Below, in pieces: positions 5,949-33,462 of a stretch of 64,000 nucleotides of DNA (position 1 is the stretch's first letter; each line of letters starts with the position of its first letter). The stretch comes from Cladocopium goreaui. Lineage: Eukaryota; Sar; Dinophyceae; Suessiales; Symbiodiniaceae. The stretch is taken from positions 1-64,000 of the forward strand of contig CAMXCT020001084.1 of the NCBI GenBank assembly GCA_947184155.2. The letters run 5' to 3'. The notes under the pieces are model-generated. The model was not told the DNA's origin, made no database searches, and saw only the letters and a list, made by a program, of their open reading frames with translations. Position numbers and translations under genes: made by a program.

Positions 5949-5979
5949 AAGCCAGTGCCAGGGCATTTGGGTATTTCAT
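5949..5979 (+). repeat. Left terminal inverted repeat (31 bp)
   Basis: Begins AAGCCAGTGCCAGGGCATTT and continues to TATTTCAT. It is the exact reverse complement of 33,432-33,462. Beyond base 31 the two ends are still similar for about 20 bases (CTTGGGGTTTTCAT against CATTTGGTGCTTTCAC) and then diverge. Confidence 0.88.
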
Positions 5980-6013
5980 GTGTACTTGGGGTTTTCATTT
6001 TGGATGATGGCAA

Positions 6014-6640
6014 TGTGGCAAGCTCTACGCAAGGACTCTGCAAAAGATTTCTACCATGGACTTACCCTATTATGCAAGGACCCTGGTAACAAAAAACCTA
6101 CCATGGATTGAATGGTAGGATGGCAAGCTTTGTGCAAGGACCATGCGAAAGATTTCTACCATGGATGGTAAGCTCTATGCAAGGATTCTGCAAAAGACCT
6201 CTACAATGGATTTGCTCTATGCAAGGACTCTGATAAAACAAATCGCCACCATGGATTGGATGGTAAGATGGCAAGCTTTGTGCAAGGGCCATGTAAAGAT
6301 TTCTATCATGGATGGTAAGCTCTACGCAAGGACTCTGCAAAAGATCTCTACAATGGATTTGCTCTATGCAAGGACTCTGGTAAAAAAAAAACTCTACCAT
6401 GAATTGGATGGTTAGATGGCAAGCTTTGTGCAAGGACCATTTCTACCATGGATGGTAAGCTCTATGCAAGGACTTTGCAAAAGATCTCTACAATGGATTT
6501 GCTCTATGCAAGGACTCTGGTAAAAAAACTCTACCATGGATTGGATGGTAAGATGGCAAGCTTTGTGCAAGGACCATGTAAAGATTTCTACCATGGATGG
6601 TAAGCTCTACACAAGGACTATATATGCAAAAGATATCTAC
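6014..6640 (+). repeat. Left subterminal tandem array, ~147-bp unit
   Basis: Four tandem units begin with GGCAAGCTTTGTGCAAGGACC-type sequence at about 6,122, 6,270, 6,417 and 6,554, preceded by a partial copy from 6,014. Each unit has shorter internal repeats built on GCTCTATGCAAGGACTCTG and TCTACCATGGATGG. The same sequence occurs in opposite orientation at 33,045-33,245. Arrays of this kind near transposon ends often serve as transposase binding sites; that role is inferred. Long frames here are repeat artefacts. Confidence 0.82.
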
Positions 6641-6767
6641 AATATAGAAGCTTTTGAATGTACTTACTACCTAAATGTGTATGGCAACGTAAATAGTTCT
6701 GGCATTCCCCACGCACAAGTATTATACCAAGTCACCTACCACCTATTGTTTCCCTGTCAGTACACAC

Positions 6768-7115
6768 AATATATAATTATACGTATAAATAAGTAAATAT
6801 ATATAAATAAATATATATATATATAATATTTGGAAAACTAGTTGTATTTATGTAAATATAATAATATATATATGTATAATATATATGTATATACATGATA
6901 TAAAATAAATAAATATATATATATATATACTTATTTTTAATAAATTATATCATGTATATATATATATATATGTAAATATATATATATATATACATGATAT
7001 AATTTATTATATATAAGTATATATATATATGATATATTATATTTATATGAACATATAAATAAATAAATAAATATATATATCAATGCTGAATATGCAAATA
7101 TATATTTATATGTGT
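6768..7115. repeat. AT-rich microsatellite tract
   Basis: Almost pure TA and ATAAATA repeats. It lies just inside the left subterminal array. A similar but shorter tract lies just inside the right array at 32,798-32,873. Confidence 0.85.
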
Positions 7116-8450
7116 ATGTTTTTAAGTCTCCATACCCCAAAATAGCCACAAGAAGAAGTAGGAAGTGACATGAAGGTATTGAATTTGATTTCCGGTACAA
7201 TGGACATGTATGCGCAACCTAGCAAACTCACACTTGCATTCACACATGCTTCTGTTTTTGCCCACACATCTTCCTCCCTTTTTTAACATCAGACTTTCAA
7301 CATGTGGCATGAACTTCACAAACTCAAAGTCAAGCACGTGGTTTACCTGTCAGCTTGTCATATTTTATATTGGCCAGAAGGCAAATGATGCATTAAGATA
7401 GTTTGTTGTGAAATTCAACAAGTCTCTTGATAGTTCTTTTTGATGCAGCATTTGAAACAAATACAATGGTTTCAGGAAAATTTTAATCATGGAAAGTCAC
7501 TTCAAGCTGTTCCAATGATCACCTGTAATTGCTTCACCTGCTACCTTTTGCACCTACTACTTCTTAATGGCAAACCATCAATCAATGTTAGTCCACATGA
7601 TACTAATGGAAAGTCGCCTGTCACTTACTGCCACAACTTGTTACATTAGAAACTCACCTGTCACCTGTCATCCACTAGTGCGTCCCACTGACAGCCAACC
7701 TATATTCTATGTCAGTGGAAAGCCACTCACTGTAACCTAAAATGTTTAAAAGGAAAGCCATCTCCTGACTCCTGCTTTTTGGCCTGCTATGTTGGCCCTG
7801 CCATTGGTGATGCAGACTTCTTTGGGCAAGGCCAGCGCCCAAGAGCACCATTTGGAAAAAGGAAGTGATTGTCATTTCAGTCTGAGGGGATGCAGCTGTG
7901 GGCATTTACAATAAGAAACAAAACGATACCACAGAATGTTACTTCAGCAAAGCATTTGTTTTTATGAATTCATGTCACCATGCCACAAAAAATGATAGAC
8001 AGTGATGCCATCACTTCACCATATTTGTTGGCCAAGCCACTGCTAGGATGGCTTCACAGGAGAATCAGCCATCCTCATGCGACGTAGCTGGCTCAGCAAT
8101 GCCCAGAGAGGATGCCCTTTTAAATTTAACATCCCCCTCATGGGAAAAAAGGGCCATCCCCCCCAAGAAGAAATTTACAAGTCAAATTCATGCAGTTTCA
8201 ACCTTCCCGTGACCATTCTGAATCTGTTTTGTGTCAGTGGCCTGCTCTGAACTTAGGTTAATGCATTATGGTCACGTGACCCAGCAGCTTTGATTCCGAT
8301 GCCAAGTTCAAGTTTGTCACTTTCAGTTTCAACCTTTGTTTTGATGCTTTGGATGTTGCATTTGAATTTGCCACGCAGCCATTATAAGATCTATATAGGG
8401 ATTTCACCTGTCATCTGTCACCTGTCATTTGTCCTAATGTCGCACCCAAT
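7116..8450. other. No supported gene
   Basis: Several TCACCTGTCA motifs (for example 7,655-7,675 and 8,405-8,425) but no frame with convincing exon character. It may hold the 5' region or early introns of the gene whose exons appear from about 8,450. Confidence 0.4.
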
Positions 8451-8805
8451 GTCGCGGTCACAGAAGCCATTCAGGAAGATTTGGAAAAGTCCATTGATGA
8501 GCAGTGATGAGATGAACCTATGGTTTCCTGCCTTTAAACCTGAGGATGTGAAGTTGGAGACGAGCCTGAATTGAAATTAATTTCAAACTTTGTAGCTGTT
8601 TGAGTCTAAGCTCCATCAAAGAAATGATGCACTTTGAGTCTTGCTTCAGGATCACACCACTGAGTTCGGATGCTGCTTTGGCGGAAAGGATGCGATTGGC
8701 ATTGGGAACAGGGGCTTTCGAAGACCAGATCATCACCCCGTTGTTCCCAGACGAGTTCAAGTTCGGAGTGATCATGAAAGACAACCAGACAATGAAGTTG
8801 CAGGT
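8451..8805 (+). CDS. Exons of an unknown protein (gene 1, first recognisable part)
   Basis: Two protein-like stretches in different frames. The first (about 8,451-8,570) encodes a segment ending FPAFKPEDVKLE. The second (about 8,590-8,805) reads from SSIKEMMHFESCF to FGVIMKDNQTMKLQ and ends at CAG followed by GTAGTT, a good donor. I recognise no domain. Frame change and the splice signal imply an intron between them. The start codon is not identifiable, and these are probably internal exons of a longer gene running to about 15.4 kb. Confidence 0.45.
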
Positions 8806-8954
8806 AGTTATGTTTGACAATTGACATTTGCATTTGCCGGGGCTTTGAAAACAAGAAAAAGTGATTCAAATGATTGACATGTACTTGGACATAGTCAGCT
8901 TATCATACTAAGATGCAAGATTTTCCAGATTTGGATTGATTTTTTTCCAGGTAC

Positions 8955-10162
8955 AAGCATCACTGGCAAGGCTCGGCTTGAATCCCAGAGTTTGTTCCAC
9001 AAGCTGTCATCAGTCACCTGTCCATCAAAGGTCACCTGTCTATCAAAGAGTCTATGCAGCTGATTTCAATTTCCATGTATGATCATTTTTTTTTGCAGGT
9101 GATCCTGAGGAGTGCTTGTCTCAGTGAAGACGTTTTTCATGTCCCTTGGACTTGTCACTTGGTGTTTGGGGAAGAGTTTCAAGTCAGGATGTGGCCAAGA
9201 TGGGAGCAGACAAGGACTTCCGTAAGCAAGCAATGCAGTTTACTTCATCACCATTGACTGCAACTTGCCAGCTGTGTGCAGTTTCCCTTGGTGAGTTTCA
9301 GTGGCAGGATTCCGAACATCAACGTCATGATTCATCATGGATTGGTGTGGGGCTTGGGTTTTGGGAATCATTTCACTGTTGCAACATCAAAGCTGTAATG
9401 TATTTATTTTGGAAAGATTTTCAGGCAAGTATTCTGCAGTGTTGCATTTTGTGAAGGGTTGATTCATTTGGATCCTGCATGCAGGTGCTGAACTACCCAG
9501 TCTGCAGCTTGATTGACTTCAGTGACCTGTCTTTTAGCTTTCTTTCTTGTCATTCCGGTCACCTTGCAAGATCTAAGATTTTGTCATGCAATTTATGTTG
9601 GAAATTTTTGCCAGGTGCAAACATCACAGGCTCGGCTTGAATCTCAGAGTTTGTTCCACAAGCTGTCATCAGTCACCTGTCCATCAAAGTCACCAGTCAC
9701 CTGTCTATCAAAGAGTCTGCGCAGCTGATTTCAATTTCCATGTATGATCATTTTTTTTTGCAGGTGATCCTGAGGAGTGCTTGTCTCAGTGAAGACGTTT
9801 TTCATGTCCCTTGGACTTGTCACTTGGTGTTTGGGGAAGAGTTTCAAGTCAGGATGTGGCCAAGATGGGAGCAGACAAGGACTTCCGTAAGCAAGCAATG
9901 CAGTTTACTTCATCACCATTGACTGCAACTTGCCAGCTGTGTGCAGTTTCCCTTGGTGACTTTCAGTGGCAGGATTCCGAACATCAACGTCATGATTCAT
10001 CATGGATTGGTGTGGGGCTTGGGTTTTGGGAATCATTTCACTGTTGCAACATCAAAGCTGTAATGTATTTATTTTGGAAAGATTTGCAGGCAAGTATTCT
10101 GCAGTGTTGCATTTTGTGAAGGGTTGATGCATTTGGATTTTGCATGCAGGTGCTGAACTGCC
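8955..10162 (+). repeat. Direct duplication of an exon-containing segment (~545 bp, 665-bp offset)
   Basis: Bases 8,955-9,497 and 9,617-10,162 are nearly identical. Both include GGCTCGGCTTGAAT, a GCAGGTGATCCTGAGGAGTG stretch, AAGATGGGAGCAGACAAGGA and TGCATGCAGGTGCTGAACT. Protein-like pieces are preserved in both copies: an ARLESQSLFHKLS stretch, a SSQDVAKMGADKDFRKQAMQ stretch and a NINVMIHHGLVWGLGFGNHF stretch. The gene therefore seems to have a duplicated exon cassette, which could create repeated protein modules or mutually exclusive exons. Confidence 0.75.
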
Positions 10163-10261
10163 AAGCCTCGTCAGATCCACAGCATTGTCAAGAGTCCGTC
10201 GTGGAGTGAAGTGCTGAATGTTTGTTTTGGCTGATGCATTGCAAGTGTCCCTCATGCGTTT

Positions 10262-10474
10262 TTGGCTGGCATTTGGCCCCAGTCTTCTGTCATTTCAGAC
10301 TCGTCGCCTGTCACTAGCCAATTTGGCATCCGCTGTCCAATGGCCAAGCGCAGCCTGTCCCAGGAGACCTTAGATCTGGCATTTCTGTTCACAAAGGTTT
10401 TCCCAGAACTCACAGTGCAGGACTCATGGTCCACAACGGCATCGAGCCATTCTGAGGCAGGATTTCTGCAGTGA
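10262..10474 (+). CDS. Exon of unknown protein (gene 1)
   Basis: A protein-like stretch around FGIRCPMAKRSLSQETLDLA followed by FLFTKVFPELTVQDSW. No known domain. It follows the duplicated exon cassette in the same strand and is probably part of the same gene. Exon limits are uncertain. Confidence 0.4.
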   Translation: MAGIWPQSSVISDSSPVTSQFGIRCPMAKRSLSQETLDLAFLFTKVFPELTVQDSWSTTASSHSEAGFLQ

Positions 10475-11780
10475 CTGTGCTGTAGTGTTTGATGGATGTA
10501 AGACACTTTTTTCTTTGATCCCAGGGAGATCACAAGCGGTGCCGGGTCGATGTCCAGATCTCATCCAAGCTCATGTGTGGTGCAGTGTTTGGTACATTTA
10601 CCTTTAGGAAGTTTGAATCCAATTAGCATGCGGTTTGAATACATTAGCACGGAATACTACATCGTTGCAAGTTGTCATTTGCTTGGCCCAGGTGCCACCA
10701 CCACCTCCCTTCTTCATCGAAAAGGTCTTTTGTGTTCAGATCTCAGATCATGATTTCAATGATTTCATTTGAGATCATGATTTTCAGTCCTTCTTAATAA
10801 GATGTGGTAAATTTCCTGTTGGTTTCGGCCGGGGCCAGGAACCCCAAAAGAACCGAGATGTTGTAAAACTCGGTCTTTTTCAAGTTTGAATTTTCCCCTG
10901 GGTTTTGGTGACCCAACCCCAGCAGGAAATTTAGAAATAAGATGTTTTCAGGCCAGACCAAAATCGAAGGCCCAGAAGAAGCCAATGGAGGCATGGGGGT
11001 TTCGCTCAAAACTGAGCGGTTTCGATTTGTCTAGTTGGTTGAGGAAAGTGTGAGGTCGGTTATTTTGTATTTTATTGTTTTGCTTGGGAACTTGATTTAC
11101 ATTAGATGGGTGTTGAGAGTTAGCTTGATGAAAGAAAGGAGGTTACAGTTTGTTTAGGGAGTGTTGTTGAACTGTGTCGACAGGTGATTGAGGTCATCTG
11201 ATGGTGTGAGTGACAGGTGATCGAGAGGTCATTGGACCTGAAATTCACGGTCTATATGTTGAAGGCACCTGGAAACTGAAGTTGATGCACGTGAAACTTG
11301 AAGCTTGTTGGTGTCATTAGCTTGAACTTGATGCCAGATTTTGACGAGCAACTCAGAGGCGCGCAGTCATCATATGTCATCTGTCCATGTTGAGGTCATT
11401 GGCAACATTATTTTCAATGTTCAAGCCATTGGCATGCATCAACATTATTTTGTTTTCTTGGGCAGGACATCATGGCAAAGCGATGGCAAGCATTGCTTGA
11501 GGGCCCCTAAAGAAGTGGCCTCTTTTAGATCCGCCTTTTTCCCACAGGCACTTTAAAACTCTGTTAACTCTTTGCTGTGAGCAGAGAAAAAGTTTGATAA
11601 AGCAGCATCAGCATGTTGACAGACAATTTTTCCAATGACAAGTTAACCATGTTTTCTGTCATCTGTCTTCTGTCACCTGTCAGTTTCTTGTTGCCCAGGT
11701 TGACCATTGAACTTTTGCCAGCACCTCATTGCTTGCAGTGTGAATGTTTCTTTTTTGCATGTCATGCAAGTTGTTCTTGG
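10475..11780. other. Probable intron or spacer
   Basis: No convincing exon. Contains scattered GACAGGTGA motifs near 11,180-11,225 and 11,675. Confidence 0.35.
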
Positions 11781-11860
11781 GATGATGATGATGATGCTGA
11801 TGATGATGAGGAGGACGATGATGATGATGATGATGATGTTGATGATGATGATGATGATAG
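11781..11860 (+). repeat. GATGAT microsatellite
   Basis: Repeats of GAT and GATGAC over about 80 bases. Read on the plus strand this gives a poly-Asp stretch and on the minus strand poly-His; both are best explained by the microsatellite. Confidence 0.8.
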
Positions 11861-12057
11861 TGTGATGTCATGTTCATTGTGTCGGGGTCTGCCCGGCAAA
11901 TCTGCTTAGGCTGAAGCCTTCGCCTTTACTTGCCTTTGATGCCAGGCACTTTCTGTGAGAATTTCATGTGGTTTCGAATGGTGAATGATTGCAGCAAATG
12001 CCACCACATGCACAATGATATGTTTTTGTTTGTGCAGCAATTTTGTTTCAAAGCCCG

Positions 12058-12700
12058 CTGTTGTTTTTGACTTGCGCACTTGCAACCCAAGCTTTGTTTG
12101 TTGCAAAGATGGGTGAATGGGCCGAATGCTTGGAGGTTGGGAACCCAGAGCCAACCGATGAGGCACCAGCTTTGACATTAGTCAACCACTTGTGGTGGCA
12201 ACTCCTCAGCCCCCATCTGAAAACGGCTGGCAACATCATCAGCACCTACTACGCGGAAGATCCTGAGGTGTATTTCAAGAAACAAAGGAACGATAGGCAC
12301 TTGGACTTCCATGAGTTGGGATACCCTCAGAACTGGGGGACGGCCTCACCCGCATTTGCCATGGCCCTTGTGTGCCCACAGCTTCGCTACCTGTCTCACG
12401 ATGTGAGGCATCGGGTTCTCGAAGTTTGGCTGTGGCGTGCCACAACATCTCAGTGTTGGCTCGAGTCAAAGACCTTTGTGGAGTCATTGACACAGACGAT
12501 TTGCAAGTTGATCCATACAGGATGGTTCTTGCAGCTCCCAACGGGCTTGAAAACGCTCGAGAGTTTGGAAGAGTTGCTGAAGATCCGTGAAGCATTCGTG
12601 CATAGATTGAGGAGTTCACGACTGGCTCCAGGGGTCCAAGGGATTGAGGATTTGCTCACCTGTCACCTGTCCACAGTCAACCAGTTGGTCCTGACTTCGA
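12058..12700 (+). CDS. Exon(s) of unknown protein (gene 1)
   Basis: A continuous frame of about 210 residues with good protein character: MGEWAECLEVGNPEPTDEAP, then a HLWWQLLSPHLKTAGNIIST segment, a DRHLDFHELGYPQNWGTASP segment and a helical region ending LEELLKIREAFVHRLRSS. The frame continues upstream without an ATG, so it is an internal exon. I recognise no domain. It runs into a repetitive stretch at 12,700. Confidence 0.5.
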
Positions 12701-12905
12701 GGCCTTGGTCTCAAAGGTATCAGGAAGAGGTGACTAGGACCGGATCGACATCGTACCCATGGACTACGACCAATGGATCTACTTGGGAGCCTTGGCATCA
12801 GGAAGAGGTGACTACGATGGGATCGACATCGAACCGATGGACTTCGAGAGGTGGCCGGACCGACGTCGAACCCATGGACTTCGGATCTACTTGGGGCCCA
12901 TGGCA
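12700..12905 (+). repeat. Short tandem repeat within or after an exon
   Basis: Two to three degenerate units of roughly 65-80 bases sharing CAGGAAGAGGTGACTA, GGATCGACATCG and CCCATGGACT. The open frame (Gly-Ser-Thr and Trp rich) is a product of the repeat. Confidence 0.6.
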
Positions 12906-13847
12906 ATAACTTCGGAGCCTTGGGATGGATGGAATGCGACTTCTGAACGTTGAAGTTGGTGACAGGTGACTTCGAAATCCCATGACAGGTGACTTCGACA
13001 AGTAATTAATAATCTTTTTCAGCCTAAGGCTAGTCTTGTCTTCTTGAGCTTGAAGACCGGCATTGAAAATGCCATCGAAATCCCATGTGGCTCAAAAAAA
13101 TCCACTTCATTCTGCAGTTCTGCAGGGCATTCACGAGTGGGAGCGGGCAAGCGGATGTTGAGTTCCAAGCACGTTCACTGTCTCATTTAAATTCATATCA
13201 GCCCATGTGCCATCTACATGTCAGCAGCAGCTGAAGAACCATGACATCATGAAACGGCATGTTGATGTACAAAATAAGTCAACTATATAAAGCTATGCCA
13301 ATCGATGAAAGCTTCCATGCTTATTTTCACAGTTGAGACAGTACTTGAGACAGTTAATAATTGACTGCAAAGCTTGAAGTAAAAAATATATCAACCATAT
13401 CAACTGAAAACTTATGGTCACATGTTTGGCTGCAGTAAAATAAAGCATGTGAAACCCTCACCTGTCACCTATCATTTGTCATCTGTCACCTGTCTCATTT
13501 TGCAGCCATGGCTGGGACTGGGCAAATGGTTTTTATGGCAATGGGTGCTGAAGAGGAGTACATGTGGCGCCGACAGAAACGTCATAGCCTGATTGGTATT
13601 TTTGCTGATGTTTTCCACTGACTTCTTTTCACTACAGCGCTGATACTTTTTGTCACCTTCCATCTGATTCATTGAGGTCTGGGACGAGAGATCATGGGCG
13701 ACGTTTTGAACAGCAAGTTCAGGGGCTATGTGCATCAGTCACTTGATGTGACTTGGCATTGCCTTACATGTTCATTGTCACAGATTGTTCATTTGATGTG
13801 CATTGATGTGCATTCATTGTCACAGACTGTTCCCTGATTCCTCTAAG
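12906..13847. other. Probable intron or spacer
   Basis: TGACAGGTGACTTCGA appears twice (12,958-12,990) and a TCACCTGTCA cluster lies at 13,458-13,495. No frame is convincing. Confidence 0.35.
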
Positions 13848-14110
13848 GTCCGTGGATTCGCAAAGAGCAACCCAGCCAAGTCTGTGAAGCGAGGGGGGCA
13901 GATCTTGGATTGTGAGGTGCAGATTTTTTTTTTTATCTGACATGTGTGGCATGAAGTTCATTTTGTGTGACATGAAGTTCATTTTGTTATTCAAACTATT
14001 CCTGCAGGTTCAAGACATGCTGATTGAGCAGAAGGAGATCATTGCGTGCGCGCTCTATGTGGTGGAGTGCGCGAAGATCCTGAAGTACCACCACAAGATA
14101 ACGTGGGTGG
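13848..14110 (+). CDS. Two exons of unknown protein (gene 1)
   Basis: The first (about 13,848-13,918) encodes VRGFAKSNPAKSVKRGGQIL and ends in Glu. After an intron ending TTCCTGCAG, the second (14,009-14,107) encodes VQDMLIEQKEIIACALYVVE followed by CAKILKYHHKITW. The acceptor has the CAG|G form typical of dinoflagellates. No domain recognised. Confidence 0.5.
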
Positions 14111-14884
14111 TCTTCCTCCTGACATGTCACTTTGCCTGCATGGGAACTGCATGTGTTTGTGTAAAACAATGGTTTCAAAATCAAACATGATGATGTGACT
14201 GGATTGTATGGGATACTGATCCAATAAGATGTCCTTAGGTAATTTCCTTCACATGTCACCTGTCACATGTCAGCCTTATGCATTTTCACACTTAGGTTCA
14301 GCTGGCAAGCATCGGTCTGCTATGGTGGCAGTGCTGGCAGCCTTCATGTTGGATGAGCTTGTCTTCTTGCCATCTTACCACACGTTTCTTGGCAGGGCAT
14401 TTTTTGGTTGAGACATGACTGAGACAGTTGACATGAGGTTTCACATGTTGACATGTTTCAATTGTTGGGTTGAGACAGTTGACATTGACTGAGACATGTG
14501 GTTTCACATGTTTTGGTCCGAGGCTGTCATCAGAGCCATGGGAAGTGAAAGAGGATACTTTGAGCCCGAAATGCATTCAGATCCTCAAGGCAACTTGGCT
14601 GAAATAGGAACTTTACACATTCATTGCTTGTGTCCCTGATCACTATATGTGGCTTCTATATATATAATGTCTTTGACACCCCAACTTCCGATTACTCTTT
14701 ATTCTTTGAAGGCCAGCACATGTTCCATTCAATCACGTTATTATCTGCTGTCTTCTGTCATTACTTGCTCCAAGCTTTCTTGGATGATGGAGGTGATGAT
14801 GATTTTAGAGCAAAGACTACGATCTTCAACCCAAGCTACAGCATAGTTTTCATGATAATGATATAGCTACTATGATCTTCGACC

Positions 14885-15413: not shown

Positions 15414-15419
15414 GACAGG

Positions 15420-22025: not shown

Positions 22026-22056
<31 letters not shown>

Positions 22057-25000
22057 GTGTGTATATACATGTGTTTATATATATATATACATTTTTAATA
22101 TTTATATTTAATATATATATAGTGTTTATTTATTCATTTGTTGGTACTGATTATTCACTTTCATATATTGTTGTTCATTCCAAAATCATCCAAGGTCAAA
22201 GCAGTTGGAGTTTGGTGGAGAATTATCACCAGAAGATCACAACCTGATCATGGACAAGATCATTAGCATCCAGGAGGACACCCTTTCCAACCACGATGGA
22301 TCTTCCAAGGTCACTGTTGATCAGTTGTGGACCTACCGCTTTGTTGTTACATCATGGACCCGTGGCATTGCAGACTGCTGCTCCGCTGACCTGAAGTCCA
22401 CTGACTTTGAGAATGTCAAGGATGCAGTGCTCAAAGGTGATGCCACTTGCTCGCATCAAGGTTTGTTCTTTGTATCCATTGGACTTGTAGAATCTCTGAG
22501 TTATTTGAATCTAGGCCCTTGACGGACAGATCAAGATGTGCATCAAGCAATGGCCCATGGCTTGGAATGTCACCATGCTTCCAGACGTGGCTGCGTTGGC
22601 GACTGATCAAGCAGCAGCCCACGAAGACAAAGAGAATCTCATTGAAACAGCTGAGCGAGAAGAGTGGATCTTCGGCCAAGTTTATGGATCTTCGACCAAG
22701 TTGTTTTGATAGCTTTTGGTGCATCCAGCTGTGGTTTAAGGACAGCAAAGCTTCGTTCAATGGAGGCCAAGCTTGCAGTTGACCAACGGCTTCTGTCGTC
22801 CATGAGCACAGGACGTCAGACTCAGAGTTACTTACTCTGTCAAGCAAGTCATCAACTGTTGATATTGAAATTGATGATGTAAATATATTAAACATAATAT
22901 GTGAATAAACATATTTAATAAACATATTTAATAAACATATTTAATAAACATATTTAATAAATAGTGCTCTTGGTTTCGTGATGCTGTCGTCTTCTGTTCA
23001 CCTGCAGGATTTGAGACTTTGCAAGACTGCCTCGACTGGCTGTCATGCAAGAAGAAGCTGGCTCTTGCAAAGACAGCTCAGGAGTTGGTGCAGAAGTACC
23101 AGGAGATGCAGAGCCCAGTGTGTGAACTGAATGACATGGCCGAACTGCCAGGGCAATATGCCACAGTATCTTCAAAGGTTACTGCCCATATCAAGGGCAA
23201 GAAGCTGGTGGTGGCAATCTGCGACTTCAATGTGCCTGGCGTTCCTTGATTTGAATCATTCTGGACCTGCATTGTTCTTTGTGATCTTTTTCACCCTAAG
23301 GCGCGGAATTCCTTGATCCAGCCAAAGTTGATCACGGGCTTGGCCAACTTGTGCCGAACACAAGGCTTCAATTACTGTGGACACTGTGACAGTGTCAAGT
23401 TAAATTCATGTTTTGATTCTTGGCTTCACCATGTTTAACCAGAAATCTGCAGGCGTGGAGCAAACTGTGGTTCTTGCGACTATGGCAAGTCGGTCAAAGG
23501 AAGAGAGTCAGGCAGATCCACTTGAGGATTTTGTTGAATTTTGCAGGGGCATGAAAAGTATTGGATTCGGAGCACAGATTCCTTGGAACCAATGTCTAAG
23601 TGTCCCCGGTGAAGAGCATCTCGGCTTTGATCAAGTTACAGGTGACAGGTAACAGGAGATAGTAGTTGACTTGGAAGTGTCAGCCAGTGTGACAGTGTGA
23701 CAGGTGACTCAGACTCAGTCAGTGTGATTTGCAAACTCGCGACAGGTGACTTTGAAATGTATCTGTGAACTCAGGTCATACACGCAGCAGCAATGGGATT
23801 TCACTGCCAGTGGCAGGCTCTTTTTCCTCTACAATGACCTGGAGAGCGCAACTGCTGATAATCACTTTGCTTCGTTGAGTGAGTTGGCAAGGACGGGACG
23901 GGTTCCCAATGCCACGCTGATCTCCTCTCAAGACATGGTCCAAATTGGGACGCCGGGGGGCTCTGAGCGCACAACTGTTCGGTACATGCCATCAACAAGG
24001 TCGGCTCAAAAGGGTAGTGATGCCAGCTTCCAGCTGTACAAGACACTGTTGAGCACAAGCAAACTTCGGAAGCCACACCTCACAGGGCTGTTGAAGCCAA
24101 ATGACGAGGTTCATCTGGTGGACATTCACCCCTATGTCGGGGACCACTGTTTGGCCACCATGCTGATGAAAGACGAACTGCCAAGTGGAGTTGCTATCAA
24201 GCACTTCCTAGTGCAGTTAAACAACTTGAAGGCGTCCGTCCAGGCAGCTGAATGGTGTGTCAAGCGATTGGGTCATTGGCTGGCACAGCGCTGGATGAAA
24301 CACGAACTGAAGTTGGAGCTCGATGGCAAGACAGTCAGCCCAGACATTGATTGCCAAGTTCTTTGCTTGCATGTGTTTTTCTTCAAAGGTTCATTGTTCA
24401 TGTACTTTATGTGAAGGATTTCTGATTTTTTGAGGGTTTCGATTTTCTGTTTCTGAGGCTTTGTCGGAAGAGGATGTGAAGCACCTCAAGTCCTTGAATG
24501 GGGTGTGGGATGCTTATGAAGGAGTCCGTGCTCTTGGCGCCAAGTTGAAGGTTTGCCAGATCTCTGGATCTGCTGTTGTCATCATGTCACCTGTCAAAGC
24601 TGAATTTCAGCAAGCTCCTCACTTCATTCGTGAAAGGTTTGAAGCTGTGGAGAAAGAGCACTTTGAGATGTATGGAGAGCTTTTGAAGTCCAAGTTGACA
24701 CCAGAGGCAGGCTCAACACCCTCTTCAGGGACCTTGGATCCACGTCCCATTGCAAATGGGGCAGAGGCAGACATACCGGCTGAGACCATGCCAGCCTTTG
24801 AAAGCGAAGCCAAGGTCCGAGAAAAGTACAACATCAAAGTAGAGTGCAAAGCATTTGACCCCAAGAATGTGATCCTTTTGGTTTCTGAGACAGGTGTGGC
24901 ATTCATCTACAGCAAGGAGGCTGTGACTTTGAAGCGTGGGATGCGACTTGGGGGTTCTGGCAGTGGCAAGTTGGTTCAGGGAGATGAGTGTGGCATCAAG

Positions 25001-25566
25001 TTCGAACTTGGCTCTGACAGAGATCTTCTCGAGGCGATTTTTTCATGTTACTTTTCCATGATTTTTGTAATGGTTTTTGACATGTAAGGACATGACTCAG
25101 ACGGACAGGTGACATGCAAACGGATTGTAATTGACAGGTGAATCTTGGCTCCAACGCCGATGATGAGGACGAGGACAGCAGCAAGTGCAAGAGAGGATCT
25201 TTCTACATGTTGGCCAAAGACTTGATGAAGAATTCTCCAGCAACGGAGATCAGCCTCACAGGATACAAGGTTGTTTCCAAAGGAGATGCAGCACTGGGCG
25301 ATCATGGCTACGACCTGACAGCAGAGGAGGGCACTTCTTGGGGCTTTGTGGCCAAGGACAAGGATCCTAAGAGCTTCTCTTCGGGCAATGCATTCCGACC
25401 TTTGGCTCAGCAGCCCAAGCCATTGCACCCCAATTTCACATGGATGTGGAGGTGCAACTGGCATGCGGTCCATGCCAAATTGAGCATCAAGAAACCCTTT
25501 CTCACTGTGAACCGGGACGTGAAACTCGAAGCCAATAAGCCAGTCAAGGTTGTCAAGGAAGATTGA
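20205..25566 (+). CDS. Many-exon unknown protein (gene 2)
   Basis: About 17 exons, joined by my reading of frames and AG|G acceptors. It probably starts at ATG 20,205 (MSAITNEFVVAPELWQVSLH). Exons lie near 20,358-20,495, 20,558-20,695, 20,790-20,985, 21,063-21,425, 21,633-21,795, 21,810-21,945, 22,199-22,433, 22,516-22,675, 22,690-22,850, 23,008-23,230, 23,302-23,395 (with a YCGHC pair that could bind metal), 23,455-23,545, 23,547-23,650, 23,776-24,355, 24,458-25,033 and 25,139-25,566 (stop TGA, preceded by VKVVKED). The last intron begins GAG|GCGATT, a GC donor, and ends GACAG|GTGAAT inside a TGACAGGTGA motif. The product would be over 1,200 residues. I recognise no family. It lies upstream of the methyltransferase and transposase on the same strand and could be element cargo. 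Confidence 0.6.
21990..22130. repeat. TA-rich microsatellite in an intron
   Basis: TATA and TATGTA repeats between two exons of gene 2; the frame reading through it is intronic. Confidence 0.8.
22897..22962. repeat. Short AT-rich tandem repeat
   Basis: About four to five copies of a 13-base AACATATTTAATA unit in an intron of gene 2. Confidence 0.85.
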
Positions 25567-25873
25567 GAGAGATCAAGTGATCGTCATGAGCGGCATGCAG
25601 TCTTTGCCTGTTTGTGAGTGTATAGCTTGGTTGGCTAGTTTTTCACTCTAATTTCCATGGCAAAGCCACTGCTTTTCAGCATTGTCCAGCTGAACCTCAA
25701 ACAAACCTGGGGGAAAAAGATCAGAACAAAACACTGTCAGCCAACTTTCAACTGTGAAATTCCTTGTGTTCTGGCATTCTTCATAGGCATGGCCTCATCT
25801 CATTCCTTTTTCATTTGCCGCAGCCACCAGTCAGCAGTCTCAGTCGCCACCTGTCAGTATTAGGTCTTGTCCA

Positions 25874-26727
25874 ATGGCGGGCCAGGCAGCGTTTGACTTT
25901 GTTTTCAAGGAGATGATCCCTGAAGGGGCGAAGAAGGATGCCAAACCTTCAACTTCACAGGAAGAGTCACCTGTTTCCGCAAAGAAGGTTTCTTTGAAGT
26001 GGCGCCCTGCAGTCAGCGATCTTGCTTCCGAGGATGAGAAGGATCCATGCGTTGATGGGCAGCCCAGTTGTTCATGGGGGAGTCTCGCCAAGGCTTCTTC
26101 CAAGACTTCTCTCTCATTGCAAGTTGAAGATGAGAAGTTTCAAGTCCAGCTGGCATTGGAAGATGGCAAGCTCGCATTGGAAGATGAAGTGAACAAGAAG
26201 CATGATGATGACACTGCCCCTTCTGGCAGCAGCAAGCAGCCTGCCTGCAAAAAGAAGCTTGCCACTGCCTGTCAAAAAAAACCTGCCAGCAAGAAGACAG
26301 ATAAGCCTAAGGGTGAGGAGTGCAAAAAGAAAGTCAAAGCAAGTCCCTGCACAAAGAAAAGCTATAAAGTCCAGACAGATGAGCGCAAGACCTTCGCCAA
26401 TCGAACCTGTCCTCCCGGGCCTGAAGGCTCTACGAGATTCGAGGCAATCAAGAAGGCTTACAATGAAGTGATCAAGGAGAGGATCTCCAGGAACCAAGAG
26501 GTGGGCTTCTGTTTGTTAGCATTGACAGTCAAGGTTTTCCACAGTCACAATCATATGATTTTTGTTTTGAAACCCATCACTGGCAGGCTTTGTTCTGGAC
26601 CTTTTGTCGCAAGACATGGGAGGGGAAGGAGTTGGCCTTGCACGAGTACGAGACGGTCGCAAAGGAGGCTGCTGAGACGTGGCTTGAAACAGATGGCCAA
26701 GAATGGCTTTTGGATAACGTGGGTTGA
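25874..26727 (+). CDS. Two-exon Lys-rich protein of unknown function (gene 3)
   Basis: Exon 1 runs from ATG 25,874 to 26,500, exon 2 from 26,587 to the TGA at 26,725-26,727, giving about 255 residues. The junction is AACCAAGAG|GTGGGC and GGCAG|GCTTTG. The N-terminal half is acidic and low complexity; residues ~115-165 are a Lys/Cys-rich basic tract (QPACKKKLATACQKKPASKK and following). The C-terminal part is a compact helical region: RFEAIKKAYNEVIKERISRN, then ALFWTFCRKTWEGKELALHE and AAETWLETDGQEWL. The basic tract suggests nucleic acid or nuclear association. It lies between gene 2 and the methyltransferase; I infer, weakly, an accessory role. Family not recognised. Confidence 0.65.
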
Positions 26728-27101
26728 AAGGCCTTTGGGGCCTGGGGTATTGCACATTGGATTCTTCAATCCTTTTTGTGCCTTTAAATCTCTGCGTCAC
26801 CTGTCGGTGTCACCTGTCACACTGTCGGTGTCACCGGTCGGTGTGACCAACTTCTTGGCTTCTTGATGGAAAAAGTTTAGGGCATCCAGTGCACCCGGCA
26901 TTGATTTCAAGAAGATTGTGATTTTCCAACGTTTGCCATTTGATATTTTCCACCCTGATCGATCCAGTGATTCCGGGTCAAGGCGACTCCAGTGGCATCC
27001 TTCAACTTCAAGGCAGCTGCAGTTTGTGGCTTGAATTGAAGTTTCGGTTTCCAAATGGTCATAGAATGATGTCAGTTCAGTTGTTACTGTTGTGTTTTCA
27101 G

Positions 27102-27113
27102 TTTTGGCTCAAG
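27102..27113 (+). other. Possible relic of the dinoflagellate spliced leader
   Basis: TTTTGGCTCAAG is identical to the last 12 bases of the 22-base dinoflagellate spliced leader (which ends GCCATTTTGGCTCAAG). It lies 40 bases before the ATG of the methyltransferase gene. Such genomic relics arise when trans-spliced mRNA is reverse transcribed and reinserted. A 12-base match in 64 kb is unlikely by chance but not impossible. Confidence 0.45.
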
Positions 27114-27153
27114 CCATGTATAGTCATTTGTCATCTGTCATTAGTCACCTGTC

Positions 27154-29301
27154 ATGAGCTCCACAGAGACCGAGAAGTCTGAGCCCGAAAGGCCAGTCTC
27201 AGTGCCAGGACGAGCACGTGGGAAGGGACGTGGCCGGGGCAAAAGGCCAGCACCTGCAAGTGCTAACAGCCGACCATCGACCCAGGCCAAGGTTGAAGAC
27301 CATCATGGTAGTGACAATGAAATTTCTACCTCCAGTTCAGATCAGTCTGAAGAATCCAAGCGCATTGCAGCTGCTGCTTCTTCTTGGGAAGAGCATGGGA
27401 AAACTGGAAGACGGAAGGCTCCATCATGCCCACAGGAGATGGTTGAAACATGTTGAATGGTTTCATTTGTTTAAAGGAGGTGGCTGAAATGTGTTGAAGT
27501 TGAAATGTTTTCTGTTGATTTTTCTTGCATGTTTTACACAGCATGTATCCTCCCAGGAGCCTGATTCTGAAGACGACGGTCCTACTTCTGAAACCAGCCT
27601 CAACATGATGAACTTTCTGCGCGCTGCTGCCAAATGTCTTCAACCTGATTGTGTGGAACTTGTGAGAAGAACTTTTTCTGAGAAAGAGTTGTCCCTTGGT
27701 GAGTTTTGCGCTGGAATGGCCACAGGGACCATTTGTGCTGCTGCCATCTCCCGAGTTCTAGAAGAAGAACATGGCCTTTCAGTTCGAATTCGCACAGCTT
27801 TCTACACAGAATGTGTCCCATGGAAGCAGCAGATCATCCAGAGGGTCCATGAGGCAGTGGATGGCAAGACCAAGTTCAATTTGATTTCCAGGACAGGTGA
27901 CCTGGTTTCAAAACCAGAACAGATGACTTGCGATATTGCCGTCAAGGCCATTGAATGTGACGATATTTCAACATTGAGCTCGACTCCACGTGGTGTCATG
28001 GATTGCAAGGGCAAGAGCGGATCCAGCTTTGTGCCTTTGATTAAATGATCCAATATGATCCAATCTATTTGTTGAAACATCTGAATGAGCGACTTGATAT
28101 TTACCCATCTCAGGTTGAGTTTCTCGGCTGGCTGAAAAGCCTTGAGTGGAGTTCTCGGCCAAGATTTATTGTCATCGAGTGCGTCGCAGCATTAGCCAAG
28201 CTTCGCAAGGTGGTGCGAGAGCGTGGGACCACAGTTGTGAAAGAGCAGCTTTCTGAACTGGGCTTTTGCGGTATCTTCAAGGCTACTTGTCACTGATTGA
28301 ATTTGGTTGTTATGTTCAACATTTGCATTTTGTATGCGCTGAATAGTTTGCACCCTGCAGGTTATAAACAGCAAGAATTTCGGGGTTCCACAGTCACGAT
28401 CCCGTTCCTGGGGTGTCTTTGTGAGATTGGATGCTGGCTTGGGCTACTTGGCTTCAATTTCGCGGGGTTGTTTTTTCAGTGGCAGGCATTCTGCGCATGC
28501 AATACGCAGTTGAGGCACTGTGGGGATAGCATTGCACATGTCCCAGCTGGAGAAGATCTGGCGCATGATCCATGGGTGTGAAAAGCCTCCGGAATCTTTG
28601 GAGCGGATTTTGAGCAAGGGCTTGAATGCAGGCATAGAGGACCTGCACAGCACCAGTTGCAACCTGAAGGAGCCAAGCAAAAACACACAGAAGAAAGAGA
28701 GTCTTAAACATCAAAATTTGGTGACCTTTTCTAAGGTTTTGATTGGTGGTGTCTGCTGTCAAGGGGTGATGTAGTGATGCAGTGATGCGTCAAGGGGTTC
28801 TAGGTTTAACAGTTTCCAAGGAAATGGAGAGCCTATCACTCCAACTTTGTCAAGCAGCATGACCTGAGCCCGTCCGACTTGCAGCATCCATTCTCCAGTG
28901 TCATCAAGGAACAAGGCAGTGGCATTGGATTGACAGAGCGTGAAATTGATGCCAGTGTTTTGGCTCTTGCACTGATGGGAAAGAAGAACTCCCTTGGGAA
29001 GCTGCTGGTCGCCCCAGTTGGCGACAGCTTACAATTTATGAAATTTCGTTCACAAGTGCACCCCTGCGTTTTGCCAAGCAAAAAATATTTATACTTGAAG
29101 GGGAACATGGCGACTGTGAACAAGTCTCCTGTCTTGCCGTTCCTGCTGCAGGGGCTCTCAATAGAAGAGCTTAAGATGTGCGGTCTGGACGATGGTGTTC
29201 CATTCAAGCATGCCCAGGATTTAGCTGGCAATGCGTTCACCGCAAATGTATTTGCGAGCATTTTGCTCAGCATCCTGTTGCATTACTCACATAACAGCTA
29301 G
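27154..29301 (+). CDS. C5-cytosine DNA methyltransferase, divergent
   Basis: Six exons: 27,154-27,435, 27,557-28,030, 28,114-28,281, 28,361-about 28,450, about 28,515-28,720 and 28,813-29,301 (TAG). Most junctions are phase 0. Donors are GA (CACAG|GAGATG), GT (AGCTTT|GTGCCT) and GC (TTCAAG|GCTACT). The N-terminus is a basic Gly/Arg/Ser-rich tail. Motifs of the family in order: motif I LSLGEFCAGMATGT; an acidic residue in AFYTECVPWK (motif II); a motif IV equivalent AVKAIECDDIS, with Cys in an ECD rather than PCQ setting; IVIECV for the ENV motif; NFGVPQSRSRSWGVFV (motif VIII); LSIEELKMCGLDDG and QDLAGNAFTANV (motifs IX-X). It would methylate cytosine in DNA. The junction between exons 4 and 5 (28,450-28,520) does not join cleanly, with an in-frame TGA at 28,511, so it may be frameshifted. 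Enzyme family: confident; activity: uncertain. Confidence 0.8.
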
Positions 29302-29581
29302 ACCTGAGGGCTGTGGGGAAAAATGATGGACACAAACTTTTTTGTCACCTCTTTCACAATGCTTCGATTGGAGAACAGTGGGCCAACTGTTGTTCATTGA
29401 TGTTTTTCCTGGGAGCTTTTACGGCTTAGATAACACCATGAAGAGTTCTTTGTGACAGGTTGTGACAGGTGGTAGGGACAGCAAGGTATTGACAGGCGAC
29501 AGTCAGAGGACACATGTTGAACTAGGAAGTTTGGAATCTAAAAAGGACAATAGATTTGGTAAGCCTGCAACCTGCCATGAC

Positions 29582-32061
29582 ATGGTCAGTAGCTCGACTT
29601 CAACTGAGAACAGTGATGCTGGAGGCAACATTCAGCAGATTCTAGATGTTGAAGCAAAGCCAAGGGCAAAGGCAAAACCCAGAACAAAACCTGTGCGCCT
29701 TGTCCAGCACAGCCTAGCGGACAAGGCAGCCAGTTCCCAGCAGAGTTTCCTGTTGACATTTCACCAGAAATTGGAAAAGGCAATCGAGCTTGGCAAAGGC
29801 TGCCTGTCATGTGGCCAGGACTGTTTGGAAAGGGTCAAATCATTTCGTTTGAAGTTATGTGATTGGCGACGAGAATTTCAAAGTCTCAGCTCTGATGTCC
29901 AAGATCGTGAGCTGCTGTGGATTTTTGGTCGGGGCCGCCCAGATCAAAAAGCAGTGGAACCAGTGCTGAGATCCAGGCAGCCATCTGACAGTGCATCAGC
30001 ATCTACAGAGCAATCTCCAAATGAGCTGCAGCAAGTGATCAGCACGTCTACTTCTGGGAGCGACCAGGAAGTTTTGAATTTGACATGCGATGATACAGAT
30101 GTTCCGAATTCTCTGAGCCAATCAGGCCCTGCTTGTGCATCTGGAAATAAGCGGAAGTACACTGCACGCAAGACAAAAAGCAAGACCTTGTCAGTCCAAC
30201 TTCAGGGAATCTTGTGCGAGGAGAGCTGTTTTGTTTGCGTGGGCACTGCAAAATTCTTGCTGGGAATCGGTTCCGGCCGCTATGCTAGAGTTTCTCTGGT
30301 TTGTTTGCTTATGTTTTGTTTTTTTGCTTTGGATGTGACTGTGGTGGTTTGTTGAGAACTACCATTGGGGAGCAACTTGACACTGAGGTTCTTGGAGGCC
30401 ATGCGGATCAAAGATTGAAAGGAAACAGGCTTCCTCAAGCACCTCACCACGAGCAGCTGGATACATGTATGCGATTTCTTCAGCTGCGATATCACCATGA
30501 TGGTGAGAGCTTGCCAGACAGATTCCATTTTGAGGAGGTGCCATCATTGCAAAGAGGACCATTTCTTCTCACATCAGTGACGGACAACAAACCTGCACCT
30601 GCAGAAAGTAGTTCCGATTCAGCTTCAAGCATGTCACAGGCTCAATGGGATGAGCAGGATGCACGGAAGCTGGCAACTTTGTCTCTCAGGCAGCTACTCA
30701 CAGACACCCCTTTCAACAATTCACTGACAGGCCCAGGAGCTGGAGCAGCCCCGCGCAGATGGCTTGGCGTGGTGAAGCCCCAGATCTTGTTTGAGATGAT
30801 GTTACGGTGGCACAAGGAGAATTATGCCGGAAAGAAAGCACCATCTTTTACCACTTTCCGACGTGCGCTTCAAGGATCCAAACAATTTTTGGCTTTTCGA
30901 AAATCTTCAGGGCAACATGCAGTTTGTGACCAATGCACTTGGTTCAAACGTGAGCTGAAAAGGGTGAAGGCCCTTCATTTGCGGAACAGACTCATCCAGG
31001 AATACGCGGAGCACCTCTTGCAGAACTGGCGTGACAGAGCTGCTGACAGTGCATGGACAGCATTGGCTTTTGAAACAAGAGCATTGAGTGTCTCATCCAA
31101 TGTTCGAAGTCATCCGTCATCTGTCCTTGTCATCAGGTCAGACGGCTTGGACCAAGCCAAACATAAAGTTCCCAGGGCTCATGTCAAGTCCAAAACGTTT
31201 GATGAAGTTATTCGCCCAGCTTGCCATGTACAACTTATTTGGGTTCATGGTCATGGCTTCAGCCTGTCAGTGGGAGACCCCGATGTTTGCAAAGACACCT
31301 GCAACCATGTGGATGCACTGGCGAGGTGTTTGTCTTGGGTGCATGACATCACAGGGATACCCCGACAGGTATTTCTGTTGTTAGACAACACCGCTCGGGA
31401 CAACAAAAACTCAAAGATGCTTCGCTTCTGGTTGAAATTGACTGCACTGGGTGTCATTGACACTTGCAATATCGGTTTCCCGATAAAAGGCCACACCCAC
31501 ACATGCTTGGACGCAGTGGGTGGCCAGGCAGTGACAAGATGCAGTCATGAAACTTTTGAGACGGCCCAGGAATTGGTCGAGGTTTATCAACGTTTTTTGG
31601 ATGATGCTTCATTGGAAACATCTTGCTACTTCCGGAAAGCATGGAAGCACGATTCAGGCCCAGAGTGGGACAAGTGGCTGGAAGAGATACCAGTCACCCT
31701 GACTGGCCTGACAGGCCCCAAGGCTCCACACCTCTTCAGGATCTTGAAGCGAAAAATGCTGTCAATGAAAGACTTAGACAGCCTTCAATATGAATTTGCC
31801 CCAGGCCATCCAGAAGACATTCTGCTGTTATGTCATATGTTTGAGTCTTCACCAAAGCCCTTTCAAGCAGAGGTGGCAATCCGAGCAGAGTCCTTGCCAG
31901 GGCTTATTTCACGGCTCACATGGCAGCCTTCTGGAGAGCACCCTCGGAGGCATGTAGCTTGGAAGATTCGCAATGAAGTGAAAGTGAAGGCAGATGCTGC
32001 ATTTGCAAAGCATCTTGAACTTGTTTTGTCCAGTTTTTTTTCTTTGTCACAAAAAGAATAA
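29582..32061 (+). CDS. Transposase-like protein, D-D-D RNase H-type core (DUF7869-like)
   Basis: Exon 1 runs from ATG 29,582 (MVSSSTSTENSDAGG) to about 30,289; exon 2 from about 30,373 to the TAA at 32,061, total near 800 residues. Exon 1 has a CLSCGQDC pair and a basic KRKYTARKTKSK stretch. Exon 2 has a VCDQC metal-binding-like motif with a following helix, then three conserved acidic blocks: VIRSDGLDQAKHKVP (Asp at 31,141), FLLLDNTARDNKN (Asp at 31,384) and IKGHTHTCLDAV (Asp at 31,510). The LDN...DNKN and GHTH...D blocks are hallmarks of the transposase-like domain that databases call DUF7869. Spacing suggests a DDD nuclease fold that cuts and joins element ends. It is the gene closest to the right terminus. 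No internal stop interrupts exon 2, so it may be functional. Start and intron limits are inferred. Confidence 0.8.
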
Positions 32062-32110
32062 CTGACAGTTGACAGTTGACAGTTGACAGATTTTTTTAGA
32101 GAGAACTGAC

Positions 32111-32404
32111 AGTTGACTGAGGCAAGCTATCAGCCAGAAGGCCCACGCCTTCTTGACTGGATGGATCACTGGGACATTGAGACGAGAACCGCATCCTGCG
32201 CAGTATTCATTTTTGCAGCAAAGTGCATATCAGTCACAGTCACCTGTCCCTGTCACCCTGAACCCTTTTCGGCAGACCGCTCCGCGACCAATCCGCATTG
32301 TTCAAACAGATGGTTCACATCATGATGCAGCAGATGTCGAAGATGATGCAGAATGTGTCGTCATGCGAGAGAATGGCATTGAAGTGGAGCAAGACTTGCA
32401 GTGA
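32111..32404 (+). CDS. Possible C-terminal exons of the transposase
   Basis: After four tandem TGACAGTTGA-type repeats (32,060-32,120), one frame reads ASYQPEGPRLLDWMDHWDIE and, after a frame change near 32,205-32,240, another reads PRPIRIVQTDGSHHDAADVE to a TGA at 32,402. They look like short exons downstream of the transposase. They may replace the TAA-ended C-terminus by splicing, or form a separate small transcript. Confidence 0.35.
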
Positions 32405-32797
32405 GTTGCTGGAAACAAAGTGTAAAGCTGCAGCAGCATTTTCTTGGAGCTCCTAGTTGGAAATAAAGTTGCTGTAAACCTCACAGCTCCTAGTGTCATG
32501 TTGTTTTTTGTTTCTTCGATGATGAACCATTTTCTTGCGCAGGTTTCGGGCTACATCTGACAGTCTTCTTCTCAGCTAACTGTCTCCTGTCTAGTGGATT
32601 TTTTTGCGCCTTGCTTGTTCTCAGGTGCAAACCTTGGGTGTCACAGTCTTCTGTCACAGTCTTCTGCGAAAACGAAAAAAATCGTCTACGGGAAATTGAC
32701 AGCTCAGGGGACAGGGAACGGATACTTGACAGGTGACAGAGATTGAAATCACGAGGCTATATGACAGGTGACAGGTGACAGAAATCATGAGGCAGAA
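32405..32797. other. 3' spacer with GACAGGTGAC motifs
   Basis: No exon recognised. TGACAGGTGACAG motifs lie at 32,729 and 32,762-32,775. Confidence 0.4.
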
Positions 32798-32873
32798 CTA
32801 ATATATAATATATAATATATAATATATAATATATAATTATATAATAATATATAATTATATATAATATATAATG
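32798..32873. repeat. AT-rich tract near right end
   Basis: Repeated TATAATA and ATATAAT units, mirroring the AT tract at 6,768-7,115 inside the left end. Confidence 0.85.
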
Positions 32874-33011
32874 TTCCTATAGGCTCAAGATATTTAATGT
32901 CTAAATGGTAGTAGTCAACCTTAGTAAAAAAAAATGATAACTGCACCTTGATGGCAAGTCAAGGGCATCTTGGCTAGGACTTTCCATACGGCTGATAACC
33001 TCTGATGGCAT

Positions 33012-33044
33012 TACGCGGAGCACCTCTTGCAGAACTGGCGTGAC
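33012..33044 (+). other. Fragment of the transposase coding sequence
   Basis: Thirty-three bases beginning TACGCGGAGCACCTCTTGCA are identical to 31,003-31,035 inside transposase exon 2 (encoding part of YAEHLLQNWRD). They are embedded in the right subterminal repeat region. Confidence 0.9.
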
Positions 33045-33245
33045 TTGCATAGAGCAAATCCATTGTAGAGATCTTTTGCAGAGTCCTTGCATAGAGCTTA
33101 CCATCCATGGTAGAAATGGTCCTTGCACAAAGCTTGCCATCTAACCATCCAATCCATGGTAGAGGTTTTTTTTAACCAGAGTCCTTGCATAGAGCAAATC
33201 CATTGTAGAGATCTTTTGCAGAATCCTTGCATAGAGCTTTCCATA
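33045..33245 (-). repeat. Right subterminal tandem array (inverted copy of left array)
   Basis: GTCCTTGCATAGAGCAAATC and TCTTTTGCAGAGTCCTTGCA units are the reverse complement of the GCAAGGACTCTGCAAAAGAT units at 6,014-6,640. About one and a half units are present, so the right array is shorter. Between this array and the terminus (32,945-33,400) a GGGCATCT(T/C)GGCT ... CATA(C/T)GGCTGATAACTTC segment is also present twice. Confidence 0.82.
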
Positions 33246-33431
33246 CGTCACTTTAACCTCTGATGGCATTAAATACTTGCACCACTTGAAATGAAGACCC
33301 TGTCTGGTATTTGCAAGGGCATCTCGGCTGGAACTTTCCATATGGCTGATAACTTCCTGATGGCCTTAAGTAGCACCGTAATAATAGGAGCTTTTGGCAT
33401 GCCAGGGCCATAGTGAAAGCACCAAATGCAA

Positions 33432-33462
33432 ATGAAATACCCAAATGCCCTGGCACTGGCTT
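33432..33462 (-). repeat. Right terminal inverted repeat (31 bp)
   Basis: Ends CCCTGGCACTGGCTT, the exact reverse complement of the left terminus. It is followed directly by AAGA. Confidence 0.88.

Follow-up and report, generated by a model that had tools for sequence, protein, structure and literature searches.

A probable family of giant inverted-terminus DNA transposons with a DUF7869 gene and a cytosine methyltransferase gene in Cladocopium goreaui

Within a 64,000-nucleotide stretch of the genome of the dinoflagellate Cladocopium goreaui (contig C1084, bases 1-64000, referred to here as the window) lies a 27.5-kb element which is bounded by perfect inverted termini and which appears to encode a protein of the DUF7869 family, a C5 cytosine DNA methyltransferase and an orphan protein, the product of gene A. 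With a probability of roughly 0.78 this element belongs to a young family of giant inverted-terminus DNA transposons, in which a DUF7869 transposase would have the gene A product as its partner, the methyltransferase would be built in, and 11-kb forms would be mobilised in trans. The unit between the termini has moved as a whole and is flanked by 4-bp duplications; its gene set is recognised, and the association of its three genes is found in two families.

Termini and insertion site

The outer ends of the element lie at 5949 and 33462, and the 31-bp inverted termini are perfect, which makes the ends given in a preliminary description of the window exact to the base; from base composition, about 3e-14 exact matches of the 31-mer would be expected in the window. 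A direct check of the sequence places AAGA at the end of the left flank and at the start of the right flank, on either side of the termini as had been described. When the flanks are joined minus one AAGA they give a 40-bp string that is present in two intact units of the adjoining tandem array, at 33672 and 33891, and the earlier proposal that this operation restores the array unit is thereby borne out. Subterminal inverted repeats adjoin the termini, for example 6312-6512 and 33044-33244, which are 97% identical over 201 bp.

5945..5948, no strand: left target-site duplication AAGA
5949..5979, + strand: left 31-bp terminal inverted repeat
6016..6619, + strand: left subterminal repeat region, including 6312-6512, inverted relative to 33044-33244
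33432..33462, - strand: right 31-bp terminal inverted repeat
33463..33466, no strand: right target-site duplication AAGA
33463..34103, + strand: adjoining tandem array (219-bp unit), its copies uninterrupted

Copies across the genome and their deletion derivatives

The assembly (1,165,616,438 bases in 6,202 contigs) was searched with the first 15 bases of the terminus, and as exact matches only were counted, the copy numbers are lower bounds. The search gave 15 forward and 15 reverse matches, compared to 0 and 2 for a backwards control. Nine convergent pairs were found, five of them long (26,966-28,033 bp, on contigs C1084, C348, C1942, C2090 and C3093) and four short (10,986-11,266 bp, on C1680, C1780, C2643 and C2657). 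Two class II features recur among them: inverted termini, which are perfect over 31 to 154 bp in all nine, and a fixed 4-bp duplication, which is perfect in six of the nine and reads differently each time (AAGA, AGTG, CTAG, TGGT, CCAT and CCTT). If all bases are assumed to be equally likely, the chance of six such duplications in nine pairs is 3e-13. The four other long copies are colinear with the window element and, counted over aligned bases without gaps, 96-99% identical to it. Both the pairing of termini over 4-bp duplications and the colinear interior agree with the earlier proposal that everything between the termini moved as one unit.

The short copies correspond to the long element minus two segments of about 7.9 kb, with junctions at identical bases in all four.

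~8856..16771: deletion 1, segment missing from the 11-kb copies (element coordinates 2907 and 10824)
~22695..30611: deletion 2, segment missing from the 11-kb copies (element coordinates 16746 and 24664)

With deletion 2 the element loses the downstream portion of gene A, the methyltransferase gene and the portion of the DUF7869 gene that encodes the N-terminus; the presumed catalytic part of the DUF7869 frame is retained and is open in three of the four. Because one boundary of this deletion falls within the DUF7869 open frame, and relatives have that frame uninterrupted, the long form can be regarded as ancestral. Each short copy is bounded by its own 4-bp duplication, and since a single deletion product is found with four duplications at four sites, the short form has itself moved and its ends move as a unit, presumably by means of enzymes supplied in trans. 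The short copies are therefore two-ended, internally deleted versions and not solo short elements that happen to share the termini, which supports the mobility of the large unit.

Twelve matches are single termini. Those on C339, C1010, C1064 and C6198 share the 15-mer only and were set aside as chance, and those on C2292, C4010, C4566, C4976 and C5327 are read as the ends of further long copies because the same contigs hold gene A and the methyltransferase. Solitary terminus pieces of 30 bp (C3680:307249-307278) and 45 bp (C1994:16107-16151) stand beside unrelated DNA with no partner end within about 4.4 kb, and possibly represent aborted insertions or deletion scars.

The DUF7869 gene and its probable function

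29582..32404, + strand: DUF7869 (PF25273) gene, exons approximately 29582-30225, 30346-32034 and 32114-32404; start and splice sites predicted

The DUF7869 protein matches PF25273, a curated Pfam entry without a stated function, at an E-value of 1.5e-14. A search of 5.8 billion proteins, in which the best 8000 candidates were scored, yielded 20 relatives, and none of four aspartates (D266, D269, D347 and D389) varies across an alignment of 18 rows, made up of the window protein and 17 of these relatives. The domain has at least 150 matches in the C. goreaui genome itself, where D347 and D389 are kept at 20 of the 20 loci compared, and D266 and D269 at each of the 18 in which the open frame extends over these positions. 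D269 and D347 are 78 residues apart and D347 and D389 42 residues, distances that would fit a three-aspartate (DDD) transposase. Exon 2 is open in all five long copies, and the ratio of non-synonymous to synonymous substitution rates (dN/dS) between them is about 0.26-0.30, with only 2-15 changes per pair. Judged by this residue pattern, by association and by exclusion, the DUF7869 protein is probably the transposase.

The transposase might belong to an already named aspartate/glutamate (DDE) superfamily such as Sola, larger than usual and with extra genes, which would be compatible with the transposon family proposed here and would concern the name of the transposase. Sola makes 4-bp duplications. 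Excerpts of the literature attribute duplications of this length to Ginger1, some Ginger2 and AcademX elements. In comparisons confined to Pfam, neither the element nor the 18 aligned DUF7869 rows match any transposase family, and such a membership appears rather unlikely, if well worth bearing in mind.

Within 20 of the genomic DUF7869 loci (about 3.5 kb each) there is no exact inverted repeat of at least 13 bp spaced by at least 800 bp. Two divergently oriented DUF7869 genes stand about 4 kb apart at C3328:37679-42358 and C1785:121885-126539, in a family of at least nine near-identical copies (L046-L053 and L055), and may represent a further kind of element that carries a pair of these genes.

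The cytosine methyltransferase and gene A

20206..25566, + strand: gene A, orphan protein of about 1000 residues, several introns; exact splice sites predicted
27102..27113, + strand: TTTTGGCTCAAG, 12-base motif resembling the tail of the dinoflagellate spliced leader, sole copy in the window
27154..29301, + strand: C5 cytosine DNA methyltransferase gene, spliced; splice sites predicted
~27154-27441, 27557-28034, 28114-28281, 28360-28465, small exons to ~28750, and 28825-29301, + strand: methyltransferase exons

A Pfam scan of the methyltransferase exon by exon gave no match; the spliced model matches PF00145 at an E-value of 3.9e-8 and shares 64% identity over 99% with a Durusdinium trenchii protein (P0021). 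In an alignment of the element with 11 of the 19 relatives (12 sequences) the conserved motifs are C232 within ECDD[IV]S, ECVA, PQSR.R and GNAF; the annotated P0021 model is without the ECVA stretch. The PF00145 match and the catalytic motifs together identify the predicted product as a C5 cytosine DNA methyltransferase. A tree of 18 sequences places it in a clade with P0021 and P0022 with a support of 100/100. The motif TTTTGGCTCAAG, which presumably corresponds to the last 12 bases of the dinoflagellate spliced leader, precedes the methyltransferase ATG by 40 bp and would by itself suggest a host near Symbiodiniaceae.

Gene A has no match in Pfam and a single relative in the protein search, the EukProt protein P0040 (76% identity, 34% of the query covered), which lends support to the predicted start. 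Its exon at 24446-25021 is open in four of the five long copies, and a stop at 23740 in the four long copies other than the window element falls within a stretch that is read as an intron.

Association of the three genes in two families

The gene A exon has 25 matches in the C. goreaui genome, which are near-identical at 10 loci (C2090 in two pieces), 37-39% identical in 11 cases and weaker in three. The last methyltransferase exon likewise has 25, of which 10 are 99-100% identical, 13 are full-length at 40% and two are partial. The diverged matches make up a second family, in which 10 of the 11 gene A homologues have a DUF7869 match 3.1-3.2 kb downstream on the same strand (the eleventh, C348:223674, has no DUF7869 partner among the 150 matches listed) and 8 of the 13 methyltransferase homologues are followed at 5.5-6.2 kb by a gene A of this kind in the same orientation. 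At these eight loci all three genes stand together on one strand, in the order methyltransferase, gene A, DUF7869, where the window has gene A, methyltransferase, DUF7869; the partial methyltransferase match on C4317 also fits the second-family arrangement. Since two diverged families hold the same three genes in different order, the methyltransferase would seem to be a functional component and not cargo picked up by chance, and from the comparison it looks like a long-kept component of the element. The second family is, as judged from its genes, related to the window element but not the same colinear block: colinear homologues devoid of the termini, which would speak against a single mobile unit, were not encountered, and the distant homologues (37-40% identity) stand in another order.

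These associations also bear on the idea that the element is a composite of two short inverted-terminus elements which captured host genes, the middle being passenger DNA. The C3680 and C1994 pieces, in which no more than a 30- or 45-bp end abuts unrelated DNA, speak for such an origin; however, no short complete element is present among the exact terminus matches, the near-identical gene A and methyltransferase loci lie on the same 10 contigs, all 10 of which bear the terminus, and the same three genes are together in the diverged family. A composite origin is accordingly very improbable.

Weak gene A homologues (29%) are also found about 10.3 kb downstream of DUF7869 on the same strand at C2375:65149-76269 and C5109:314639-325756, and these gene pairs are possibly a third family.

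Comparison with known mobile elements

When the whole element was scanned against Pfam in six frames, as 12 translations with stops written as X, DUF7869 alone exceeded the cut-off, and Cornifin, PKD_5 and SR-25 gave weak matches under it; the scan missed the spliced methyltransferase itself, and other split genes could be missed likewise. Polintons/Mavericks have inverted termini and short duplications. Like the present element they are giant and carry several genes, with a size of 15-25 kb and up to 40 kb (excerpts of PMC6431247), and these common traits would suit a virus-derived giant element, whether a Polinton/Maverick, a polinton-like virus or a virophage provirus, with inverted termini. 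Unlike them, the element gave no match to PolB, integrase, ATPase, protease or capsid in the six-frame scan, from which genes split into exons could escape, and its duplication is of 4 bp instead of the 6 bp of Polintons (excerpts of PMC10045372). Moreover, no DUF7869 or methyltransferase relative was confirmed in 19 and 64 candidate viral-contig stretches, respectively, and the 21-base terminus has 0 exact matches in viral contigs. A Polinton/Maverick or polinton-like virus was rejected on the lack of its hallmark genes in the six-frame scan and on duplication length, and a viral derivation of any kind is the least probable of the explanations weighed.

The genomes of Symbiodinium have an unusual wealth of methyltransferase genes and contain the retrotransposons SymbioLINE-Dnmt and SymbioDIRS-Dnmt3 with intronless methyltransferases, and methyltransferase-encoding DNA transposons are found in marine viruses (excerpts of PMC5890265). 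SymbioLINE-Dnmt and SymbioDIRS-Dnmt3 are, like the present element, dinoflagellate mobile elements that carry a C5 cytosine methyltransferase, but here the methyltransferase has introns and the element has inverted termini. A methyltransferase retrotransposon was rejected, as the six-frame scan gave no Pfam match to a reverse transcriptase in the element. Starships and other giant fungal cargo transposons are similarly large multi-gene mobile units; Starships are classified by their tyrosine recombinase (excerpts of PMC12134995), and both Starship and Crypton were rejected since no tyrosine recombinase was matched in the six-frame scan.

The cut-and-paste transposons Ginger, AcademX, piggyBac and Kolobok, to which 4-bp duplications are attributed in excerpted sources, share with the element inverted termini, a fixed 4-bp duplication, deleted non-autonomous derivatives and, probably, one DDD/E-like protein. 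The same traits apply to Sola. They differ from it in that the element measures 27 kb, has DUF7869 in place of a named transposase and conserves a methyltransferase and gene A. For piggyBac and Teratorn the target duplication is TTAA. Excerpted sources give the same word for Kolobok, and all three were rejected because none of the six duplication words is TTAA. The earlier impression that the gene set lies outside the known giant element types holds for the types compared here, none of which fits. No paper naming this element was found under DUF7869 (titles and abstract openings, with few subscription papers and preprints covered) or under methyltransferase-bearing DNA transposons and dinoflagellate inverted-repeat elements (titles and abstract openings).

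Evidence weighing against the proposed family

A number of observations weigh against the proposed transposon family and the functions assigned to its genes. Three of the nine pairs, all of them long, have unequal flanks (C348 AAGA/TTGG, C1942 CACT/TAAG and C2090 AGTT/TCTC), and the long copies are mosaics. C348 differs by 0-0.9% from C1084 on the left to about 16.9 kb of the window and is of the C3093 type on the right; C2090 departs from C1084 by 0-0.5% at the right end, whereas on the left the two are far apart. Two distinct versions exist among the long copies at window positions 25949-26949 (10% different) and 10949-11949 (24%), much of the neighbouring sequence differing by only about 1-3%, which may be a sign of exchange between element lineages. 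Some flanks are held in common: C348 shares its left flank with C1084 (97-99.7% over 5.9 kb), the right flank of C1942 matches that of C3093 (100% over 600 bp), and C1527, a single terminus, duplicates the right flank of C2643. Common flanks and the three pairs without duplication would be expected if the copies had arisen by segmental duplication or as an assembly artefact instead of by transposition. Six copies, however, have different flanks with matching 4-bp words, four of these being the short form with identical junctions, and an intact array unit adjoins the C1084 copy, which makes duplication or artefact a highly improbable origin, if slightly less so than a composite one. The three long copies that lack a duplication appear to be recombinants or wrongly joined, and recombination between copies or assembly switching, both of which fit the data alike, explains the mosaics and the unequal flanks.

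The remaining points concern the genes. Exon 1 of the DUF7869 gene is without a purifying signal between copies (1 synonymous change compared to 4-8 others, ratio 1.19-2.38), the single DUF7869 protein has no match among solved structures at E-values up to 1, and the 18 aligned rows match no other named family in Pfam. Three cryptochromes among the solved structures matched the DUF7869 profile at 0.53 and were rejected as not credible. The usual C5 methyltransferase motif is PCQ, at the site of which the element has ECDD[IV]S. Damage is seen in individual copies: methyltransferase exon 2 of C348 contains a frameshift of 8 bp, the last methyltransferase exon of C5327 is interrupted by a stop, and C2090 has lost 80 bp from the gene A exon at 24446-25021. 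The left half of the element (about 6.6-20 kb) is without a clear coding signal. As for the second family, no gene A match lies within 7 kb of five of its 13 methyltransferase homologues at 40%: C348:244471 is separated from gene A by 20 kb, and on contigs C4868, C1963, C2543 and C3368 gene A is not matched. No methyltransferase accompanies the gene A-DUF7869 pair of C489 among the matches listed, and termini of the second family were not found in the sequence reached.

Proposed mechanism and CpG depletion

In the proposed mechanism the DUF7869 protein would bind the 31-bp termini and the subterminal repeats and, acting as the catalyst, would insert the excised element through a staggered cut of 4 bp. 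The gene A product may serve as a conserved partner of the DUF7869 transposase, and the non-autonomous 11-kb versions would be mobilised in trans. The built-in C5 methyltransferase may methylate cytosines, most likely those of the element itself, and thereby tune silencing or transposition. The observed/expected ratio of CpG is 0.42 in the element and 0.41-0.44 across the nine copies, compared to 0.66 in the rest of the window, a baseline that consists of this one window only, and TpG and CpA are in excess in the element copies. This depletion fits past cytosine methylation of the element by an enzyme which it leaves unspecified; methylation of the element by its own methyltransferase may be envisaged.

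A bolder proposal, tentative and at slightly less than even odds, is that the elements constitute a new superfamily of giant eukaryotic DNA transposons with a DUF7869 DDD transposase, an obligate gene A partner and a methyltransferase that has remained a core gene through deep divergence and reordering, elements which would thus write their own epigenetic mark. The findings suggest a probable function, that of a transposase, for DUF7869, and describe a gene-bearing 27-kb unit able to move between inverted termini in a eukaryote. They would also mean that in dinoflagellates a DNA transposon too, beside the retrotransposons, has a long-kept cytosine methyltransferase, which poses the testable question of why a mobile element carries the kind of enzyme that is normally used for its silencing. 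If the methyltransferase acts on the element, the latter may mark or hide its own DNA.

Other features of the element and the window

25874..26760, + strand: gene D candidate, lysine-rich protein, uncertain

The gene D segment diverges by about 10% from one copy type to another, and a stop interrupts it in three of the four other long copies. A scan of synonymous and non-synonymous changes (S/N) in the element comprised 129 comparisons of open reading frames with a median of 0.81; some short left-half frames scored lower and, having gaps and few changes, were not counted as genes. A frame at 12.1-12.9 kb (266 residues from its ATG) was likewise rejected as a gene, with no Pfam match and no purifying signal.

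An Rfam scan of the window gave 0 matches at the gathering threshold. Between 36 and 50.5 kb there is no open frame of more than 211 residues. From 39000 to 64000, units of about 7.1 kb follow one another head to tail, with 90-97% similarity over long stretches; they have no Rfam match and contain internal repeats of 9 bp and 22 bp. A long TCT microsatellite (34872-35605) adjoins the tandem array.

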